Assembly: GCF_002272135.1 (NCBI RefSeq)
Contig: NZ_NPBF01000007.1
Span: 1-64,000, forward strand
Direction of reading: 5' to 3'
Length of the DNA: 64,000 nt
Source of the DNA: Virgibacillus sp. 7505
GTDB lineage: Bacteria; Bacillota; Bacilli; Bacillales; Amphibacillaceae
Shown here: in pieces, positions 72 to 8,836 of the stretch
Numbering within the stretch: the first letter of the stretch is position 1
How the letters are laid out: each line of letters starts with the position of its first letter
The notes under the pieces: model-generated
The model's input: the letters and a program-made list of their open reading frames with translations, nothing else
Told to the model about the DNA's origin: nothing
Databases searched by the model: none
Translations under genes and position numbers: made by a program

Positions 72-818
72 TTAAACTTTTTCAGTTATTGTTAATTGTT
101 GTTCCCATCTTAACTTCATTTCATCAATAATATATCTCAATTCATTGTCATCTAAATAATCCCATAATTTCACACTACCTGTTAGGTTAATATGCCGCGC
201 TGCATATCTGATATAGTCACGGCTTTTTATTTTATAATTTTCTTTTAACTCATTTAATGAAATTAATGTAGCTTCTACCATTTTTTTATTTCTTGAGATA
301 GTAGGGGTTTCCAAAATAATTCTGGCTATATCTTGATCTTCATTCTCCAACATTATACTTGTTAAGTAGAAAGGATCTTCATATTTTTCATTATAAGTAA
401 TATATCCAAACCACCAAAGACGTGCTAATCCGCTTCTCGAAAAGGGTCTCTCTCTAAAAAAATATCGATTCAAAATAAAATTCTTCTTATCTCCAGAGGT
501 ATGTTCTATAGGCCATCTTTCTCTCATATACTCCCAGTGAGTAACATGTGTCATAAAGGCCCACATTCTCTCATCCGCTACTTCCGAAAGAGTCAAGTCC
601 GAAAAACTTCTATAAATTATTTTTGAGTTTACAAAATCTAATTTTTCATTATTGGAAGTCTCTGTTTCCAAATTAATAGTTGCACATAGTGCTTTTGTTT
701 CTTCATCAATCATATCTTGGTAATTTTCTATAAAAGGCTTACTTGATAGATAATTTGGGACATTTACTTCCACATTACTTTTAAGTTTATTTAGATAATT
801 GGAGTTAAAACGATTCAT
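72..818 (-). CDS. DUF6339-like protein, third gene of the ATPase defence operon
   Basis: A 248-residue protein with no signal peptide or membrane segment. The best-marked part is a central aromatic/basic block: residues 83-102 carry an ERMWAFMTH...YMRERW pattern and residues 128-142 carry RSGLARLWWFGYITY. This pattern resembles the DUF6339 family, a recalled resemblance that was not searched. No catalytic motif is recognised. The start is preceded by GTGAGGAACT, and the ATG overlaps the stop of the upstream gene by 4 bases (ATGA), so translation is probably coupled. It is the last visible gene of the operon begun by the GHKL ATPase; only 71 bases remain to the window edge, so more genes may follow. 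A defence role is inferred from its neighbours only. Confidence 0.6.
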   Translation of the reverse strand: MNRFNSNYLNKLKSNVEVNVPNYLSSKPFIENYQDMIDEETKALCATINLETETSNNEKLDFVNSKIIYRSFSDLTLSEVADERMWAFMTHVTHWEYMRERWPIEHTSGDKKNFILNRYFFRERPFSRSGLARLWWFGYITYNEKYEDPFYLTSIMLENEDQDIARIILETPTISRNKKMVEATLISLNELKENYKIKSRDYIRYAARHINLTGSVKLWDYLDDNELRYIIDEMKLRWEQQLTITEKV

Positions 819-1702
819 AGTTCCTCACCATCTTCAGAGTCATCCTCCATAATTGAATATAATGCTTTTAATGATTTTGAGAACGGATCATTTAGTATCC
901 TTTGAGCCAAATTAATTGGTTCCTCGTAAGTATTCTCAGCTTCCGGATCTAGTCCAAGTGCATTTATTTTTTCAAATAGTATCTTAAACCATCGCAAATC
1001 AGAAGTTTCATTATAAAAATCATTGTCATCTGAAATCTCTTCACTCATAGCTTGTAGTGCAGCGGAAACTACAGGTATACCAATAAGTGAATGAAGAATT
1101 GGTTGTAGCTCATCTTGACCTGCCAAATTAGTATAAAGCGCATATATTTCTGAATTTAGACTTACTACAATGCGTTCAGTATTTAGAGTAATGGATATAG
1201 GCTCACTGCTATCACTTACATTCTTTTCAATTTGTATAATTGATTCCGAGTCACTTATTTGATCTTTTTCAATATTAATATTGAAATCATAACCAATAGC
1301 TAAAATATCACCCTTACTTACATTAAAAGTATAGCCTTTATAATCATCATCAAATTGAGAATTAGTATAATTCTCAATTTCAGTATTAGCTACAATAAAA
1401 GTACAAACCTCTATGCTTTTTTCAATTACAGATGCTTTTAAATTCACTTGTTGGACACTGGTAACGGAAGTCTCCAAAATTCTATTTTGTGTTTTAGCAC
1501 ATTCAATATGAACACAGTATTTGGCGTTATTATTTGCTATCAAATTTGTTAACTCTTTATTATTTAAGTCATGTTTAACTGTTAGAACAAATTCTTCTCT
1601 ATTCACATCGTAAGTAATATCAGTTTCATATGAGCTCCCTTGATAATCTCCGGAAAAATCAGCTAATACCGGATATGGAAAGTGCCTTTCTTTAACTTTC
1701 AT
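815..1702 (-). CDS. Protein of unknown function, middle gene of the ATPase defence operon
   Basis: A 295-residue protein that I do not recognise. The first two thirds alternate hydrophobic and polar residues as in a beta-rich fold. The last third looks helical and ends in a very acidic tail (MEDDSEDGEEL). There is no signal peptide, membrane segment or obvious nuclease motif. Its start lies inside the 3' end of the upstream ATPase gene (11-base overlap) behind GGAGG with 9 bases of spacing. Its stop overlaps the next gene by 4 bases. This tight packing suggests the three products act together, perhaps as a complex in which this protein is a substrate-recognition or adaptor subunit. That role is inference. 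Confidence 0.6.
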   Translation of the reverse strand: MKVKERHFPYPVLADFSGDYQGSSYETDITYDVNREEFVLTVKHDLNNKELTNLIANNNAKYCVHIECAKTQNRILETSVTSVQQVNLKASVIEKSIEVCTFIVANTEIENYTNSQFDDDYKGYTFNVSKGDILAIGYDFNINIEKDQISDSESIIQIEKNVSDSSEPISITLNTERIVVSLNSEIYALYTNLAGQDELQPILHSLIGIPVVSAALQAMSEEISDDNDFYNETSDLRWFKILFEKINALGLDPEAENTYEEPINLAQRILNDPFSKSLKALYSIMEDDSEDGEEL

Positions 1703-3488
1703 TTATTAGCACCTCCAAAGAAGCTCTAATTCTTTCATTTAATTCAATTCTTATTGTCTTTTTATCCGAATCATTAAAAGAAATTGGTCCGATTTGACTT
1801 TGGTTTATAACAAGAGACTTACCTGTTTCCAAATCAACTGCTTTCTTAATATCAGCCTTATAAGCTCTTGAATCTTCTCCCACAAAATTAACTGTCACAT
1901 TTCCTTTACCGCCTGTGTTAGTTGAGATCTTAAGGTCATAAATCCCTTCACTGTTTCCTACTTCTATTGAACGAACACTAGCAATGCTAATACTAGGACT
2001 ATTAGATTTGGTATTACTGGCTGTTTTCTTCCGTTCTATATCATTTTTATTATGTTTACTTTGTCGGCCTTTCTTTCTGCCAGCTAGTTTTGCAGTAGTC
2101 CTTTTCTTATTTCTTCTAGCCGATATTTTCATTGCTTTAGGTACAAATTTATTGTGATTTTCTACTAATTTGTTGCTATCATCTAAAGGATCTTCTTCAT
2201 TTAGGTGATCCGGTAAGAATTGATTAAACCCTTTAAAATCTATTTTATTTGTCTCTTCAGTAATACTCATTTCTTTTATTGTCTCTCTTATAAAATCACG
2301 TAATTCATTTATAACTTTCTTTGCATAATCTTCATTTTCATGCCTAGAAGACTCCCATTTATCATGAGTGGGAGGCTCAGTTTTTCTAAGAAGTTGATTT
2401 AACTTCTCTCCTCTAATAATTGATACCCCCGAGAATCTAAATCCCACTCTAAATCGGTCCATATGTGTGATTTTCATCCCTGTATTTCTAACTAAAGCAA
2501 CCCTTTTGGCATATTCTTCGTCTTTCTTTATGTAAAGATCAACTTCTCCTAAGCCAGCAATATCTTTAGTATATTTTCTTCCAAACTTAATTGCAGATAA
2601 ATATTGATCAGCATATAAACCTTTATCTATTTGAATATACTTATCTATTAAGCTCTTTAACGAAGAATGATCTATTGTAATCTCTCCAACAGTTACAACT
2701 AGCTTTCTTTCATGAATAGAAATAAAAAAGTTTTCGATAACAGCCTTTATGATCTTTTTTTTCCAGTCCTCATCTTTTAGAAAAGCAGCAATATACACGT
2801 CGGTACCTACTTCTGTGCGCTTAAACTGAGTTTTTATACTACTAGGGTTAGTGATGGGCTTTGTTTGACTCTTAATTCCGTAAAAACCAGTTCCTCTTGT
2901 TTCTTCGTTATTATATTTATGAGAAGCAAGTCTCGAGACTCCTTGAAACCCCTCTTCTCCATTAATGTTTAATGTACTATAGAATACCGTTCTCAAAATT
3001 GAACACGCAAAAGGAGCACTTTTTCCAATACCAAATGAACCTCCCGCACTCCCGCCTTTATTACTAATACCTACCGACTTTACAAGATTTTCCCAATCGC
3101 TTCCTTCGACATTTACTCCCTGTAATCCTTTAGTGTTATAATCACTAACTCTTAAAAAAGTGAATTCATCATTTTTCTCGAGCATATCTAGTCCCTGTGC
3201 AAAAAAAACTTTCGCTTGCTCAGGAGTTCTTTTATACTTTAAAGAAGATTCAAAAGCATTACTGAGTCCTTCTCTATCAGGAAATTCTTCTCTTTTAACA
3301 GTAAACTTACTAAAAGATACTTTTACTGGATTGTTTCTATCCAGAATAGCATCAGTAGAATTTTGTATAATTTCTCTAGCTAGTGATTCAATTTGGTTAC
3401 CACGAAAGCTTTCTACACCTGAATCATTTAATCCTTCTGGTTGCCCACCTTCAGCATTTATAGGAAAATACCATTGGTATTCCAACAT
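1692..3488 (-). CDS. GHKL (HATPase_c) ATPase, MORC/MutL-like, of a putative defence operon
   Basis: A 598-residue protein whose first ~170 residues read as a GHKL ATP-binding fold. The N-box is REIIQNSTDA (38-47; Asn43 the expected Mg ligand), the D-x-G-like box is RVSDYNTKGL (113-122), and the glycine-rich lid is GGSFGIGKSA (149-158). There is no histidine-kinase phosphoacceptor domain, so this is a MutL/Hsp90/MORC-like machine rather than a sensor kinase. Residues ~450-490 are a Lys/Arg-rich stretch that could bind nucleic acid, followed by a small beta-rich C-terminal domain. The start follows TATGGAGGCAAGAT, a good RBS. Bacterial MORC-like ATPases are known to cluster with C5 methylases and Vsr nucleases, as here. 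Role in DNA-targeting immunity is inferred. Confidence 0.75.
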   Translation of the reverse strand: MLEYQWYFPINAEGGQPEGLNDSGVESFRGNQIESLAREIIQNSTDAILDRNNPVKVSFSKFTVKREEFPDREGLSNAFESSLKYKRTPEQAKVFFAQGLDMLEKNDEFTFLRVSDYNTKGLQGVNVEGSDWENLVKSVGISNKGGSAGGSFGIGKSAPFACSILRTVFYSTLNINGEEGFQGVSRLASHKYNNEETRGTGFYGIKSQTKPITNPSSIKTQFKRTEVGTDVYIAAFLKDEDWKKKIIKAVIENFFISIHERKLVVTVGEITIDHSSLKSLIDKYIQIDKGLYADQYLSAIKFGRKYTKDIAGLGEVDLYIKKDEEYAKRVALVRNTGMKITHMDRFRVGFRFSGVSIIRGEKLNQLLRKTEPPTHDKWESSRHENEDYAKKVINELRDFIRETIKEMSITEETNKIDFKGFNQFLPDHLNEEDPLDDSNKLVENHNKFVPKAMKISARRNKKRTTAKLAGRKKGRQSKHNKNDIERKKTASNTKSNSPSISIASVRSIEVGNSEGIYDLKISTNTGGKGNVTVNFVGEDSRAYKADIKKAVDLETGKSLVINQSQIGPISFNDSDKKTIRIELNERIRASLEVLINES

Positions 3489-3831: not shown

Positions 3832-5502
3832 TTATTCTAAATACTCCAACATCTTTCTTGCAACAGCATTAGCCAACTTTGGAGGAACTGCGTTACCAAT
3901 TTGCTGGTAACGCTCATCTTTTCTGCCTTCAAAGGCAAAACTATCTTTAAAAGACTGTAATCTAGCTGCTTCCCTAATACTTAAAGCTCTTGCTTTAGTA
4001 GGATGTTGCCACATTGATTTACGAACATTAATGACTGTGGGAGATGGTTCATCATAATTTAAACGTAAGTAAACTGTGTTTTGAGTCCTAGATGCATCCT
4101 TATAGGATTCTTTCATATTATCCGGTAGGCTATGAAAATTCTTTCCTCCACTTTCTAGTATTTGTTTATATCGTTGCTGAATTAAATCTGAACTTTTAGT
4201 ATTAATGTGATCGAATAATAATTTGTTCTCTATCCCCTCACGGTAATATCTTATAAGTTCATTACTATTTTTATTAACATAAATGCTCTCCTCATAGGAT
4301 TCAATATCCTGTTGAGGCTCAATATCTTCTAAGTCATAAATTGCATCTCTTACTGTATAAACCTGTTTTGAATACGGCTTAGGTAATGTAACTTTTTCTT
4401 TTGTCTGATAAATACCCAACATCATAAATCTTTTTCTCCGTTGCGGCACACCAAATTGAGAAGCATCTAGTACACCACTATCTAGTGAATATCCGTAATA
4501 AGGAAATAGCCTCTTTAAATATTCAACTACATTATAAGAATAGACACCAATATGAACTTTAAACAGCTTATCCTTTACTAGACTGAATTTATCACAGTCT
4601 ATATTTTCATCTTTAAGTTCCTTGCAACGAGTTAAAAACCGATTTAGATCAATAAAATCTTGGATCTTATCTTTTATCAAACCTGATGATGTTGATCTTT
4701 CTAATATGATACCCAAAGCTTCTATGGCATTAGTGATCACCAAATCCATGTCTAAATCTTTTTTAGATTTACTAAGAATAGAGAGAATTTGTTTTATTTC
4801 ATTTTGTTCTTTACTACCTTTTAAACGAATTTGATCACTGCTTTTAATTCTACGTTCAATCGTACGAATACGGGAAATTAGAAAAGGTTCATTTATTAAA
4901 GGTTCCGGAACATCAGATAACTCTATGTAATTACTAATAATCCTTCTTAAACTATCGCTATCAAAATTTAGAAGTTCTATATAATCTCTTTTGTAAAGCG
5001 GGTCATGCTCTTCTGAAGAAATCGAATCTAAATGTCTCTTTGAACTAAAATCATTTTCATCGTTTTCTATAAAGTTTGTAACAAAAAACTTATGAACTGG
5101 TGAATCTATAGATTTTACATTTTCCATAAGAAATGCAATTGGTCTAATATCTCTAATTGCTCTTGCATATTCCTTTACAAGCTGATTATTCCCTGATATC
5201 AAGTAATTTTTTTGACGATTTGCATTAGAGAATCCTTGGCAAGGTGGACCTCCTATTATTACAGTTTTTCTTGGATTTAATTGAAGATCCTTAAAATTGA
5301 TCTTTGAGATATCACTTGTATCAGAGGCTTTATCTTTTAATATAAGTTCTTTTCTACCCCCATGGTTTCTGATAAAGGTTTTTTGAGCTGCTATATTTAG
5401 CTCTACTGCACCTACTGTAGAGAAATACCCTGTTTGCTCAAATCCATTGCTTAAACCACCTGCCCCCGAAAATAAATCGATTATTTGATACTGTTTAGTC
5501 AT
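3832..5502 (-). CDS. dcm: DNA (cytosine-5) methyltransferase
   Basis: A 556-residue C5-cytosine methylase. The SAM motif I is DLFSGAGGLS (residues 9-18), motif IV is GGPPCQGFS with catalytic Cys88, and motif VI is MENV (126-129). Motif VIII (QRRKRF) lies near 356, an EPSPT element follows near 475, and the C-terminal QIGNAVPP motif X is near 536. The stretch between motifs VI and VIII is unusually long (about 200 residues), making the protein larger than a minimal ~330-residue C5 enzyme. The start has AAAGGGA nine bases upstream. A vsr gene diverges from it 227 bases away, the usual partner that repairs T:G mismatches left by 5-methylcytosine deamination. No matching type II endonuclease is visible. 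Target sequence unknown. Confidence 0.9.
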   Translation of the reverse strand: MTKQYQIIDLFSGAGGLSNGFEQTGYFSTVGAVELNIAAQKTFIRNHGGRKELILKDKASDTSDISKINFKDLQLNPRKTVIIGGPPCQGFSNANRQKNYLISGNNQLVKEYARAIRDIRPIAFLMENVKSIDSPVHKFFVTNFIENDENDFSSKRHLDSISSEEHDPLYKRDYIELLNFDSDSLRRIISNYIELSDVPEPLINEPFLISRIRTIERRIKSSDQIRLKGSKEQNEIKQILSILSKSKKDLDMDLVITNAIEALGIILERSTSSGLIKDKIQDFIDLNRFLTRCKELKDENIDCDKFSLVKDKLFKVHIGVYSYNVVEYLKRLFPYYGYSLDSGVLDASQFGVPQRRKRFMMLGIYQTKEKVTLPKPYSKQVYTVRDAIYDLEDIEPQQDIESYEESIYVNKNSNELIRYYREGIENKLLFDHINTKSSDLIQQRYKQILESGGKNFHSLPDNMKESYKDASRTQNTVYLRLNYDEPSPTVINVRKSMWQHPTKARALSIREAARLQSFKDSFAFEGRKDERYQQIGNAVPPKLANAVARKMLEYLE

Positions 5503-5729: not shown

Positions 5730-6155
5730 TTGAAAGACAACTCGGCTAATGAACAACGAAGAAAAAACATGCAAGCCATACATTCAAAAAATACATCTAT
5801 AGAGATAAAGACTGGAAAAGCTTTGTGGAATAGAGGAATTCGCTTCAGAAGAAATGTATCTTCTCTTTATGGGAAGCCCGACTTTGCAATTAAAAAGTAT
5901 AAGGTAGTTCTTTTTATAGATGGGTGTTTTTGGCATGGTTGCGAATATCACGGAAATATGCCGAAAAGCAATAAAGAATATTGGTCAAAGAAATTATCCA
6001 GAAATAAAGAACGTGACATAGAAGTTACTAATCATTATATATCAGAAGGATGGAATATATTGAGAATATGGGAACATGAATTAAAATATAATTTCGAGGA
6101 GACCATAACTAAGATTGTCTCTTTTATAAATGAAGCAAAGCAATTAAAATTATAA
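5730..6155 (+). CDS. vsr: Very short patch repair endonuclease (Vsr)
   Basis: A 141-residue Vsr nickase. In this family the enzyme nicks 5' of the T in a T:G mismatch that arises when 5-methylcytosine deaminates. Visible family features are the opening MQAIHSKNTSIE-like segment, GKPDFAI with the catalytic Asp, and the GCFWHGC block with conserved Trp and His. EYWSKKLSRNKERD and a GWNILRIWEHEL ending follow. The start codon is TTG, chosen because AAAGGAGGA lies six to seven bases upstream and the family match begins at once. It is divergent from the C5 methylase and is expected to work at that enzyme's target sites. Confidence 0.9.
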   Translation: MKDNSANEQRRKNMQAIHSKNTSIEIKTGKALWNRGIRFRRNVSSLYGKPDFAIKKYKVVLFIDGCFWHGCEYHGNMPKSNKEYWSKKLSRNKERDIEVTNHYISEGWNILRIWEHELKYNFEETITKIVSFINEAKQLKL

Positions 6156-6486
6156 TTTAAGATTAAACTTGTGCTGAAAATCTCAAAAAAGCAAATCAGC
6201 AGTGATTCTTAACTAAGAAGAAAAAGCAAAGACTCTTTCTAACCTAATTTACTACCCTAACCTATTGGTATTATCAATTTTTAATTAACAAATTGATCTA
6301 ACATCACTCACTTTAAATAATATACAATTAAATTAATAGGGTGGAAATACAATACAAAAAAGAAGCCTAAAGTAAAGTATCGTATCAACTGATAATTATA
6401 CTCAGAAAACACGACGCTTTCTTAAGACTCCATAGTTGTAAATAGAAAATATATTTAAAACCAAACCACTGATACTTAGTATTTTA
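6156..6486. other. AT-rich convergent intergenic region
   Basis: Lies between the 3' ends of vsr (rightward) and the DUF262 gene (leftward). No open frame, strong hairpin or repeat is apparent. A CGTATCA heptamer near 6373 resembles part of the rlmH attachment core, but the match is short and on the opposite strand, so no attachment site is called. Confidence 0.3.
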
Positions 6487-8160
6487 TTACTTAAGACTCC
6501 ATTTACTCTTTAATAAGTCAATCAACTTTTTCTGTCTATCTTCCAGGACTTTAGGAGTCCATTCATCTTCCTGTAAGACTTGAGTTGTTAACGCAAAAGT
6601 TGTTATTCCATTTTTTGATTGGAAATAAGATTTTTTCTTTTTACTAAAATCATAGTTTCTTGCTTGAGAATTTTTAGCTCGAGTTAACAGGACTAAATTT
6701 CCTAGTTTATGCACATATTCCGATGGTTTCTTAAAATTAACTAACCAATCACTATCTTCTTTTGGCGTTTGCGGAAGCACATGTTCAACTGTAATAACTG
6801 AGTGATCATAAAACGGTTGTCCATTGGTTAGTAAGGAATCTAATCGGAGCAATACATACCTTCTTACTGTATCTTTTAAATCTATATAGACATCTCCATT
6901 AAGCTTTTCCAAGACCGCCTTTTTATCGTCTTCTGACACTTTTAACAAAGATTCTTTCGAAAACACTTCAATCCCCTTTTCCATTTGTCTCAAAATCTGG
7001 GAATACTTGGACATTCGCCAATTGAAATTTTTTCGCAATACCATACTAACTCCTGCAAACTGTTCTAATAGGTCTAAGAACTCTTCTAATTTTTCGTTAA
7101 ATTCTCGCATGTAGTACATTGCTACAGGAATCCAATCATTATTATCAATTCTATTTAGCAGGCTTAATACTTTTATAATCTTTGGTTGTCGGCTGTAAAA
7201 TGATCGATAATCAACAAGTTTTAGATAAATCTCACTATATGGAATTAATAAATCATCTATGAAGTGTTTACCATTTACATTAGAGAAGATCTCCTCGTAC
7301 TCATCCTTATAATTTGCACTTCCTTTTCTTTTCTGAATAATCATTCGTATGTGATCAAATAACTTATTGAACCTATCCCGTCCTAAAGTTACTTCGACTT
7401 CCTCCCATTTGTTTGTATATAAATCATGTTCATCTTCAGGTATTGTGCCAATTACACGTGCTTTAAAGATATCACTAGGGAGTAAATCTAATCCACGATC
7501 ATTCAATACAGTAAAAATTCGAAAAGCAGAATCAAAATTTGGAGTAGAGACCACAACAATAAAACAGAGGGTAGCTAAAACTAAAGGTAGTATTTTCACA
7601 GTAGATTCATCTAAGTCATTTAGGCGTTCCATATAATATATCGCATTGTCTCGAATCGCTTTTTGACTGTCCGTTTTGAATGGTGTATTTTTTGCTATCT
7701 TATGTGTCATACCTTTTTTTTGGATGTATTTTTTTAGGAATTCATCATCTCTATTCCGTAAATGTAGCCTATACGTATCCTTTGTGCCTAAAATCTTACT
7801 TCCTTTTTGAACCACCATCTGTTCAATATCATCAGCATAGTCATCACTAAGAATATCCCTTAGAACAGAAAATAAGATAGTAAGTGTTGTTAAGCGTTGT
7901 TGGCCATCTAACACTTCTGATTTTGGACCATCATTCTTTACTAAAACCACGCTGCCTAGAAAATAAGGTTCATCTACATTATTAATATTATTTTCTGCAA
8001 TATCATAATGTCTAATAAATTCTAATATATCATCCAAAAGTTCCCCAGCTTCATCTGTTGACCATGAATAAGGCCTTTGAACAGAAGGTATAGTAAATAA
8101 ATAGTCATCTGAAAAAACCTTATGTAAAGGAGTCTCCTGTGCTGTTAATTTTGTCTTCAT
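6487..8160 (-). CDS. DUF262/DUF1524 (GmrSD-like) HNH restriction protein
   Basis: A 557-residue protein with the two halves typical of GmrSD-type modification-dependent restriction factors. The N-terminal DUF262 half has a VQRPYSW box near residue 30 and an LDGQQRLTTL box near residue 85, the ParB-like NTPase signature. The C-terminal DUF1524 half has VEHVLPQ, KLGNLVLLT and a following Asn, the His-Asn-His nuclease triad. An ATG 33 bases further upstream is possible, but the start at 8160 is preferred because AGGAGGA sits seven bases before it. Such proteins typically cleave DNA carrying modified (for example glucosylated) cytosine. It stands alone next to the rlmH attachment site. The substrate here is unknown. 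Confidence 0.85.
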   Translation of the reverse strand: MKTKLTAQETPLHKVFSDDYLFTIPSVQRPYSWSTDEAGELLDDILEFIRHYDIAENNINNVDEPYFLGSVVLVKNDGPKSEVLDGQQRLTTLTILFSVLRDILSDDYADDIEQMVVQKGSKILGTKDTYRLHLRNRDDEFLKKYIQKKGMTHKIAKNTPFKTDSQKAIRDNAIYYMERLNDLDESTVKILPLVLATLCFIVVVSTPNFDSAFRIFTVLNDRGLDLLPSDIFKARVIGTIPEDEHDLYTNKWEEVEVTLGRDRFNKLFDHIRMIIQKRKGSANYKDEYEEIFSNVNGKHFIDDLLIPYSEIYLKLVDYRSFYSRQPKIIKVLSLLNRIDNNDWIPVAMYYMREFNEKLEEFLDLLEQFAGVSMVLRKNFNWRMSKYSQILRQMEKGIEVFSKESLLKVSEDDKKAVLEKLNGDVYIDLKDTVRRYVLLRLDSLLTNGQPFYDHSVITVEHVLPQTPKEDSDWLVNFKKPSEYVHKLGNLVLLTRAKNSQARNYDFSKKKKSYFQSKNGITTFALTTQVLQEDEWTPKVLEDRQKKLIDLLKSKWSLK

Positions 8161-8356
8161 TGTCATTCCTCCTACCATATAATTCGATTTCATTCAATTG
8201 TGAAATTAAGTTTCAGAGCGATAACTACTAACAATCTAACACAAATAGTTTATAAAATTTATTATTAATCTATTTTAGGTTTAGCCTAGCAGTAATACAA
8301 TAGATATGAAGATATTCATATCACCATTTAATCTCCCCACGGAATTAGTTATACAG

Positions 8357-8374
8357 TTACTTATGATACGGTTC
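8357..8374 (-). other. SCC-type attachment core at the 3' end of rlmH
   Basis: On the minus strand the last codons of rlmH read GAACCGTATCATAAGTAA, close to the staphylococcal SCC core GAAGC-TATCATAAATRA, which Ccr serine recombinases use. The boundary between conserved core genes on the right and AT-rich defence genes on the left falls exactly here. The second copy expected at the far end of the element and the ccr genes are not inside the window, so integration by this route is inferred. Confidence 0.55.
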
Positions 8375-8836
8375 CCCCTTAATAATCCGAAACGCCCGAT
8401 AAACCTGCTCCACCAACACCAGCTTCATCAACTGATGCGGAAATGTCATTTTCGAAAACGATAGCGGATAATCACTCCGCTGCATAACTTCCTCACTCAA
8501 TCCCAATGATCCTCCAATCACAAAAACAATCTTACTCTTTCCATACGTTGCTAAACTGTCAATTTTCGACGCGAGTTGTTCGGATGTGATCATTTGGCCT
8601 TTTATTTCCAGGGAAATGACGTAGTCGTCGGGGCCGATTTTCGACAGGATGCGGTCGCCTTCTTTTTGTTTGACGATTTGCATGTCTGCTTCGCTCAGGT
8701 TCTCCGGGGCTTTTTCGTCGGGTACTTCGACTAGGTCTACTTTGGCGTAGGCGCCGAGGCGTTTAGTGTATTCCTCGATGCCTTGCTTGAGGTATTTCTC
8801 CTTTAGTTTACCGACGCTGATAATGGTAATCTTCAT
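8357..8836 (-). CDS. rlmH: 23S rRNA (pseudouridine-1915-N3) methyltransferase RlmH
   Basis: A 159-residue SPOUT methylase of normal family length that methylates pseudouridine 1915 in helix 69 of 23S rRNA using SAM. The SAM-pocket segment [13 protein letters not shown] is at about residues 105-117, and the C-terminal knot ends in [14 protein letters not shown], the expected ending. In B. subtilis and S. aureus this gene lies near the replication origin and its 3' end is a hot spot for genomic islands; a defence island starts directly beyond its stop here. Confidence 0.97.

Follow-up and report, generated by a model that had tools for sequence, protein, structure and literature searches.

The locus at the start of this contig raises the question of what three overlapping genes, a putative GHKL ATPase and two partners of less obvious nature, do beside a DNA methylase gene. 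The window, meaning the whole 64,000-nucleotide stretch of Virgibacillus sp. 7505 that was analyzed (NZ_NPBF01000007.1, positions 1 to 64,000), begins at base 1 of its contig (C7), and sequence is readable only rightward from there. All three genes lie on the minus strand and are read in the order A, B, C: A (1692–3488; 598 aa) is a candidate paraMORC2-type GHKL ATPase matching the PADLOC model PDC-M33A with an E value of 6e-186, B (815–1702; 295 aa) matches PDC-M33B (E 4e-85) and C (72–818; 248 aa) matches both PDC-M33C (E 1e-64) and, as the earlier note had proposed, Pfam DUF6339 (E 1.9e-48). The overlaps given in that note were found again, 11 bases between A and B (1692–1702) and 4 bases between B and C (815–818); because ORFs were started at the first possible start codon, these overlaps are upper limits, as are the methylase overlaps and the A/B/C/methylase spacings. 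Since all three proteins match PDC-M33, ABC, which the earlier note had put forward as the best candidate for an undescribed immune system, is not undescribed; its ATPase, too, agrees with a family published in 2008. Judged by these profile matches, A-B-C is the PADLOC candidate PDC-M33, with nothing essential different. The PDC-M33 system rule, which we take to ask for a match to each of the models A, B and C in three neighbouring genes, describes the arrangement in the window; the models themselves carry no functional description.

The three genes form a conserved unit. Order and strand were kept in 81 of 81 related loci with contig sequence past B, which bears out the proposal that they act together; the full sample comprised 85 loci, the other four of which stop inside B or a few bases from its end. 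Because A, B and C share strand and order in 81 of the 85, the linkage is not due to chance. Strong matches to A, B and C fell in an identical set of 11 of 299 genomes of the same order, so the three-gene co-occurrence that the earlier note asked to see is present, and the A/B/C distances co-vary (r 0.958, 0.951 and 0.946). Across the region, promoter-like and terminator-like sites were no commoner than in shuffles. The functions of A, B and C are predicted, which leaves some room for an ordinary housekeeping operon or an annotation accident. Against this stand a scattered occurrence (9 of 159 genomes of the family have a strong A, and the genus's nine remaining genomes, one of which is of the same species, gave no match), plasmid carriage, a variable site and defence neighbours, and we regard this reading, already disfavoured, as very improbable.

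The triad was also found on plasmids, one of them conjugative, near AbiG, and on five contigs from viral collections; one plasmid-borne copy is that of Lactococcus lactis (NZ_CP094475.1). A second genome of the species has unrelated sequence following rlmH, with ORFs like those of type I restriction-modification. The end of rlmH resembles an SCC attachment site; a staphylococcal-type SCC element there was nevertheless rejected, as a search of the genome for a large serine recombinase (PF07508) found none and matches to the SCC-site pattern numbered only four versus two for a control. Five ABC loci have a neighbouring GHKL gene (cluster c8), and the only one scored (L098) matches MzaB with an E value of 3e-72.

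Protein A carries three conserved segments that correspond to GHKL motif I or N-box (3351–3374, residues E39–D46), motif II in the variant form D-x-N-T-x-G (3126–3143, residues 116–121) and motif III, GGSFGIGK (3021–3044, residues 149–156), all encoded on the minus strand and conserved in alignments. No full-length A protein departs from the catalytic motif residues (82 of 82; three loci with split A were excluded). Alignments also revealed ExxxH (E371 to H375; 2364–2378, minus strand), given as the paraMORC2 signature in the family description, towards the C-terminal end of an S5-fold domain behind the GHKL domain (PMC2292703), with E371 in 81 and H375 in 82 of the 82 proteins, and in 14 of 14 aligned more distant relatives (12 distinct), including Z1-linked ones. 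Classical MORCs are marked by GhXhhpXXRhl in their S5 domain. With its GHKL motifs intact, A appears to be a MORC/MutL-like GHKL protein, as first noticed, and fits the paraMORC2 family; this assignment is motif-based and weakly supported by Pfam, as HATPase_c_3 touched just 5 of 29 A N-terminal regions (best E 0.006). The basic stretch remarked on earlier is present (residues ~447–495; 2004–2150, minus strand) and is followed by a better-conserved C-terminal region, but it is not a family feature, being a linker that varies and is often Gly-rich across 19 sequences. No Pfam match to the PD-(D/E)XK domain DUF4263 was obtained in A (E up to 1) or in 19 members (E up to 0.01). Against PDB sequences, the A profile gave three weak matches (best E 0.045), none convincing, and the N-terminal part of A gave zero profile matches.

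Protein B was called unrecognised with an acidic tail in the earlier note; the tail at its end is there, and the protein matches PDC-M33B. Its structure model suggests an Ig/FN3-like beta-sandwich, a second beta region and a helical C-terminus. The fold search, well tested for residues ~10–149 only, returned as best match for that segment a beta-galactosidase domain (Z 8.7, rmsd 2.2 over 90 residues), which is generically Ig-like, and the B profile had zero matches among PDB sequences. That B might be the RE-fold nuclease predicted in 2008 was rejected, as B matched the DUF4420 profile with an hhalign probability of 0.3% and a separate DUF4420 gene fits that role in Z1 operons.

Protein C is predicted to be all-helical. 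Its fold searches gave no significant match (best PDB E 0.96; best viral E 0.84), the best VIA match reached Z 5.8 over 67 residues with an rmsd of 2.7, and the four weak profile matches to PDB sequences, headed by a designed protein (E 0.0007), were not convincing. A missing fold match for B or C is no proof of a new fold. The absence of a visible nuclease held up on closer inspection: no recognisable restriction endonuclease was found in profile scans of A, B and C, and no nuclease fold was seen in the structure models of B and C. Still, C has conserved polar residues (N64 in 53, R101 in 52, R133 in 50 and D61 in 48 of 53 sequences), and ABC could be a complete ATP-dependent restriction enzyme with a novel nuclease site in C or B and the methylase as its cognate partner. 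A methylase lies directly beside ABC in 32 of 85 loci, and ATP-dependent C5-methylase systems with a separate ATPase and nuclease are known, as described for CglI/NgoAVII (PMC4267653, in the parts concerning these enzymes). The Ig-like N-terminus of the B model and the all-helical C model without a significant fold match speak against a hidden nuclease, as does the presence, in most related Z1 operons, of a DUF4420 nuclease alongside the DUF6339-like protein, so that C would not be needed there as the nuclease. We consider this reading possible, though rather doubtful. A HEPN RNase, for which we take the criterion to be a conserved R-x(4-6)-H, was rejected for C: the R-x6-H of the window protein (R84 to H91) is not kept, H91 occurring in only 40 of 53 sequences, and no equivalent R/H pair was seen by eye in aligned DUF6339-like proteins of Z1 operons.

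A gene for a predicted C5-cytosine methyltransferase of 556 aa (3832–5502, minus strand; Pfam E 6e-57, PDLC03225 E 2e-158) lies upstream of A in the same direction; the protein has an insertion of ~180 aa (residues ~145–325; 4528–5070, minus strand) between motifs VI and VIII. A Vsr mismatch endonuclease gene (5730–6155, plus strand; E 1.6e-27) is its divergent neighbour and probable accessory. An adjacent DNA methylase, one of the criteria for type II restriction-modification, is thus present in the window and is a candidate cognate enzyme. The idea of a methylase subfamily exclusive to ABC was rejected: long-insert matches, counted full-length or in pieces, occurred in 9 of 299 genomes, three of them with ABC, and among these three the methylase adjoins ABC only in the window.

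The associations that the earlier note suggested checking were upheld for the methylase and Vsr. A C5-methylase was found near 48 of 80 ABC loci (the best 80 of at least 393 relatives) and Vsr near 10 of these 80, compared to 3 and 0 of 60 loci of the control defence gene GmrSD, respectively; since ABC loci supplied the sequences for the methylase, Vsr and Z1 profiles, the ABC counts are somewhat favoured over the control. Within one order the methylase was near 10 of 17 ABC loci, and in two smaller sets near 2 of 7 and 2 of 5. The control took 60 of 94 genomes with a match, mainly the strongest first, leaving out the window's genome, G244, G282, G290, G302 and G307, whose ABC or middle-group loci were already in the set, and G366; G226, G234, G306, G352, G353 and G381 were kept despite an A homologue, which in G306 lies in the control locus itself (L203). 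Counted over whole genomes of the order, C5-methylase genes occurred in 8 of 11 with ABC versus 133 of 288 others, a difference that is not significant (p 0.12, with p-values being too small because loci are related by descent); in the other 3 of the 11, none was detected with the profile used.

The C5-methylase is not obligatory for ABC, as 35 of 85 loci have a flank without one. ABC could accordingly be a methylation-independent immune or abortive-infection module, with methylases merely sharing its defence islands. Several observations would fit: methylase distances follow those of A less tightly (r 0.695); a methylase is present in 2 of the 14 loci of a middle group, whose third gene is a different one; on a Lactococcus plasmid AbiG is close to ABC and the gene table, which is incomplete, lists no methylase for the stretch; and the methylase adjoins a MutH/Sau3AI-type gene in at least five loci (L135, L146, L149, L156 and L174) and a FokI/AlwI-type gene in L151 and L169, so that there it may belong to a separate restriction-modification system. 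However, with a C5-methylase in only 3 of 60 control loci of the same order, island membership alone cannot explain 48 of 80 or 10 of 17, and we hold this reading to be unlikely.

An effector further left, as the earlier note had entertained, is unlikely as a general rule. The readable gene after C (at least 130 aa; 77 relatives) was a methylase in 20, a ~1,000-aa protein in 11 and varied in the rest. Z1 helicase and DUF4420, the remaining suggested associates, were not found in a profile scan of the window, whose left edge is the contig end. Among 109 window-type loci, Z1 occurred at only 9 and the gene for the PD-(D/E)XK protein DUF4420 at none, compared to 11 of 14 for DUF4420 in a related operon; the 109 loci (17 + 7 + 80 + 5) include at least 13 places present twice (for example, L062/L103, L067/L136 and L075/L115), so at most ~96 are distinct, and profiles A9–A11 were built from the same far loci in which they were counted.

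Both genes belong to this related, larger operon, which reads Z1 helicase, paraMORC2, X, DUF6339, C5-methylase and DUF4420 nuclease. The nesting of a related triad within a larger Z1/DUF4420 operon is new in this analysis. A and C are homologous to their counterparts there, clearly so for C (hhalign probability 96.7%, E 3.9e-10), and B possibly so: its match to X is weak (probability 26%, E 7e-4), and X is the likelier relative of B than the DUF4420 nuclease. The C profile missed the third gene of the middle group at all 14 of its loci, and that gene gave a weak, collinear match to DUF6339 (probability 24%); L089, one of eight members scanned, matched Pfam DUF6339 just under the cut-off (E 9e-5).

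That no nuclease gene is conserved with ABC, together with the C5-methylase being the sole flanking family to reach half of the 85 loci, would also suit a nuclease-free clamp, in which A traps or compacts and silences foreign, unmethylated DNA like eukaryotic MORCs; human MORC2 is described as a clamp that compacts DNA by ATP hydrolysis (PMC12216690, in its account of that protein). DNA binding by ABC is itself predicted, however, an unlinked host nuclease could serve, and the 2008 prediction for the family, in its paraMORC2 passages, is looping to help a nuclease in restriction-like systems (PMC2292703). We give this reading a low probability.

We instead somewhat favour A-B-C as the central part of a DNA-defence module of the restriction type, a helicase-less and nuclease-less paraMORC2 variant of the larger operon. 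A, as a paraMORC2 GHKL protein, would be a clamp powered by ATP, with B and C as its dedicated adaptor or recognition subunits. The neighbouring C5-methylase, where present, would supply the self mark, and Vsr would repair mismatches arising from methylation. The ABC complex would clamp shut around foreign DNA in an ATP-dependent manner and stop its use, either via a cryptic or recruited nuclease or via trapping. We infer complex formation, DNA clamping, methylation sensing and an anti-phage effect alike. A bolder and distinctly improbable version is restriction free of nuclease and helicase, in which a MORC relative senses the missing 5-methylcytosine of its partner and compacts or silences incoming DNA, as a bacterial counterpart, possibly a relative of the ancestor, of eukaryotic MORC silencing, with the Z1/DUF4420 operon adding cutting. 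As a minimal module of three genes on chromosomes and plasmids, without a nuclease or helicase to obscure what the ATPase itself does, ABC makes the action of a bacterial MORC-like clamp on DNA directly testable, and it gives reason to see DUF6339 and B as dedicated paraMORC2 partners. Should ABC protect without cutting, it would bridge bacterial immunity and eukaryotic MORC silencing.

Among known systems, the literature searched yielded no publication naming PDC-M33, no anti-phage test for PDC-M33, DUF6339 or paraMORC2, and one paper naming paraMORC2, the 2008 prediction by Iyer, Abhiman and Aravind, whose relevant passages describe it as a GHKL family with ExxxH (PMC2292703). A resembles that family in its GHKL motifs, ExxxH, C5-methylase and Vsr neighbours and Gram-positive distribution; the paraMORC2 text, however, stresses SFII helicase and RE-fold nuclease partners, both of which ABC lacks, and the constant partners of the window type are B and C, unlike in that account, although its Figure 2 may already draw the A-B-C operon. 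Of the restriction-modification context given for paraMORC2 (methylase, Vsr, helicase and RE-fold nuclease), the methylase and Vsr are present in the window, and Z1 and DUF4420 were not found there. Mza (mzaABCDE) is similar in pairing a GHKL protein with a methylase context; its models gave no match to A, B or C at E up to 1, and between A and MzaB-like GHKL proteins at most the N-box matched. GHKL-Shedu VcSduA, a paraMORC3 and an experimentally validated anti-phage system, has, as its description reads, a fused PD-(D/E)XK nuclease (DUF4263), whereas A shows none (PMC12137116). CglI and NgoAVII likewise combine a C5-methylase with a separate ATPase, but in the sections describing them the ATPase is a DEAD-Z1 protein and the nuclease a PLD protein, and ABC has neither (PMC4267653). 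The six-gene system that Miller et al. (2022) call 'type I' is outlined with a Z1, PD-(D/E)XK and C5-methylase core (PMC9523054), from which the window type departs in being without Z1 and DUF4420. The related Z1 operon fits that system, with three core and three additional genes and DNA-repair endonucleases nearby, a match we infer because the relevant text leaves the three additional genes unnamed and prints DUF4220 (PMC9523054); A and C of the window are homologous to two genes of this Miller-like operon, and B possibly to a third.

Genes A (1692-3488), B (815-1702) and C (72-818), read as ORFs on the minus strand within the first 3.5 kb of the window, overlap by 11 (A/B) and 4 (B/C) bases, as the earlier note had described. 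Contig NZ_NPBF01000007.1 begins at window base 1, where the visible sequence left of C ends. PADLOC-DB models matched all three proteins (PDC-M33A, E 6e-186; PDC-M33B, E 4e-85; PDC-M33C, E 1e-64), and the proposal of an undescribed immune system must therefore be withdrawn: ABC is real, conserved and already a listed phage defence candidate (PDC; PMC11514479). PDC-M33 and DUF6339 were named in none of the papers found by a literature search. The new elements are the placing of A in a family, a connection between the triad and a Z1/DUF4420 operon, the methylase enrichment measured against a control, and an ABC version lacking a recognisable helicase or nuclease; no paper stating these additions was found by the search, which covered text of the 2008 paper on the family (PMC2292703).

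Conservation was assessed in 85 loci, comprising the best 80 of 393 relatives in genome contigs retrieved with a profile of A, together with five viral-collection contigs. By record title, the best 80 were mostly Bacillota, joined by small numbers of proteobacterial, Thermosipho and other entries; many were metagenome bins. All three genes occurred on one strand in the order A-B-C in 81/85 loci, confirming that they form one unit and co-occur elsewhere; in the remaining four, the contig stops inside B or a few bases from its end. A script identified 80 of the 81, and L156, an Oceanobacillus locus that failed solely through an extra DUF6339-like C fragment upstream of the operon (6410-6781), was added. 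Computed with first-possible starts, the median spacings were overlaps (A-B, -17; B-C, -1; 76 loci), and pairwise distances correlated at 0.958 for A-B (78 loci), 0.951 for A-C (75) and 0.946 for B-C (74). Among 299 genomes of the order, the same 11 held strong A (E < 1e-100), strong B (E < 1e-70) and strong C (E < 1e-40), and the same 15 shared more distant A (E 8e-53 to 2e-59) and weak B. Strong A was found in 9/159 genomes of the family and 8/398 of the phylum sample. In L065, L109, L139 and L170, A is broken into two ORFs, which suggests decay or sequencing errors; B is likewise split in L109.

No Pfam family matched A above the cut-off. HATPase_c_3, the only family matched by more than one of 29 A N-terminal regions scanned, was touched by five (best E 0.006). 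The GHKL motifs are evident in the alignment of A (N-box E, N and D; a variant D-x-N-T-x-G; GGSFGIGK), and their key residues were invariant in 82/82 full-length sequences, a set that leaves out three loci with split A. An ExxxH motif, described for paraMORC2 in the 2008 paper (PMC2292703), was also present in A (E, 81/82; H, 82/82), extending to 14/14 aligned relatives (12 distinct) from the Z1-linked operon and from a middle group of more distant relatives. By these motifs, A is best filed as a paraMORC2 GHKL ATPase, and its earlier reading as MutL/MORC-like is upheld by motif. The third gene of the middle group encodes another protein of ~250-395 aa (for example, L082:8892-10064 and L089:11363-12550), whose long form in L082 matches ZorC at its C-terminal end (EH signature, E 2e-5).

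AlphaFold models of B (pLDDT 91.8, pTM 0.61) and C (pLDDT 92.0, pTM 0.89) were locally confident. B is modeled with an N-terminal Ig/FN3-like sandwich (best VIA Z 8.7, rmsd 2.2, 90 residues), further strands and a helical C-terminus, and C as all-helical, with no significant match in fold searches; N64, W86, R101 and R133-L-W-W are kept in C. No nuclease signature was recognised in either of the two, in line with the earlier note.

Upstream of A, profiles placed a C5-cytosine methylase (3832-5502, same strand as ABC) and Vsr (5730-6155, opposite strand), followed by a GmrSD-like gene (DUF262/DUF1524; 6487-8193; PADLOC best match Orf5, E 5e-159) and rlmH (8357-8836). A second genome of the species resembles the window up to the rlmH stop codon and no further, so the stretch after rlmH is variable within the species; in place of the window's GmrSD, Vsr, Dcm and ABC genes it carries three different ORFs, followed within the same 11 kb by ORFs that by eye resemble type I HsdM, HsdS and HsdR. 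No large serine recombinase was found in the window's genome, and by that test this is not an SCC element. The window's methylase carries an insertion of ~180 aa between motifs VI and VIII (4528-5070); other long ABC-linked methylases have extra length at the same place, with no similarity to this insertion by phmmer.

A C5-methylase was in the flank of 50/85 loci and the immediate neighbour in 32/85, overlapping A or C in L099, L100, L101, L105, L106, L122 and L139 (first-possible starts). Compared to 3/60 GmrSD control loci of the same order, it accompanied 10/17 ABC loci of that order (Fisher p 4e-6) and 48/80 overall (p 2e-12), p-values that ignore kinship among loci; two smaller ABC sets gave 2/7 and 2/5. 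Vsr (10/80 versus 0/60) and Z1 (7/80 versus 0/60) were also found beside ABC. The co-occurrence with methylase and Vsr, which the earlier note had proposed to look for, is thus real, and the control comparison indicates that a shared island alone does not account for the methylase link. The methylase is not obligatory: 35/85 loci had none nearby, the profile used found none in 3/11 ABC genomes of the order, and the genome-wide difference (8/11 versus 133/288 others of the order) was not significant. It adjoins a MutH/Sau3AI-like gene, labelled from a scanned cluster member, in L135, L146, L149, L156 and L174, and a FokI/AlwI-like gene in L151 and L169; the methylases of those seven loci may therefore serve other enzymes. 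On plasmids, ABC is accompanied by a methylase in Planococcus and Priestia, in the former also by Vsr, and an 8-kb stretch of a Lactococcus conjugative plasmid has ABC near AbiG genes with no methylase in its incomplete gene table.

Other neighbours recur. A charged ~77-aa protein, absent from the window, lies upstream of A in 31/85 loci (within 400 bases in 28; for example, L104:7742-7975); one member scanned against Pfam and two against PADLOC gave no match. A large protein (mostly ~800-1200 aa; for example, L169:11438-14362), with a zinc-ribbon-like N-terminal stretch in some, is beside ABC in 12/85 loci, directly after C in 11; Sigma70_r4 was the sole Pfam match of one scanned. In L098, L100, L101, L102 and L109, the genes after ABC are a methylase, a GHKL gene, which in L098 is MzaB-like, and Z1; this arrangement may combine ABC with an Mza-type system.

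The most distant A relatives sit in a different, regular operon (14 loci, L271 a fragment only) with Z1 helicase (13), X, a ~312-aa protein (13), a DUF6339-like gene (12), C5-methylase (13), a DUF4420 PD-(D/E)XK nuclease (11) and Vsr (8), the X, DUF6339-like and DUF4420 profiles being built from these same loci. The independent C profile matched the DUF6339-like gene in 12/14 (E <= 3e-3), and also an unrelated-looking ORF in L260 (E 2e-3). Both DUF6339-like proteins scanned (L264 and L266) passed the Pfam cut-off (E 7e-7 and 8e-7), and all three scanned proteins downstream of the methylase matched DUF4420. Profile comparison related the DUF6339-like family to C (probability 96.7%, E 3.9e-10) and, weakly but collinearly, X to B (26%, E 7e-4); DUF4420 did not match B (0.3%, E 0.22). 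Among 109 window-type loci, with at least 13 places counted twice, Z1 occurred in nine and DUF4420 in none, and profiles of neither matched anywhere in the 64-kb window.

The most likely reading of ABC is a putative DNA-targeting immune module, in which A would act as an ATP-gated clamp, B and C would be partners specific to it, and self DNA would be marked by the methylase in those loci where it belongs to the module. As this version lacks a recognisable helicase and nuclease, either a hidden or host nuclease would do the cutting or the predicted clamp alone would be enough; the latter is plausible by analogy, as human MORC2 is described as compacting DNA through ATP hydrolysis (PMC12216690). 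A restriction-like role for the module is supported by its kinship with the helicase- and nuclease-bearing operon, which is similar to the six-gene 'type I' system reported by Miller et al. 2022 (PMC9523054); that paper describes three core genes and three further ones that it does not name, and spells the nuclease domain DUF4220.
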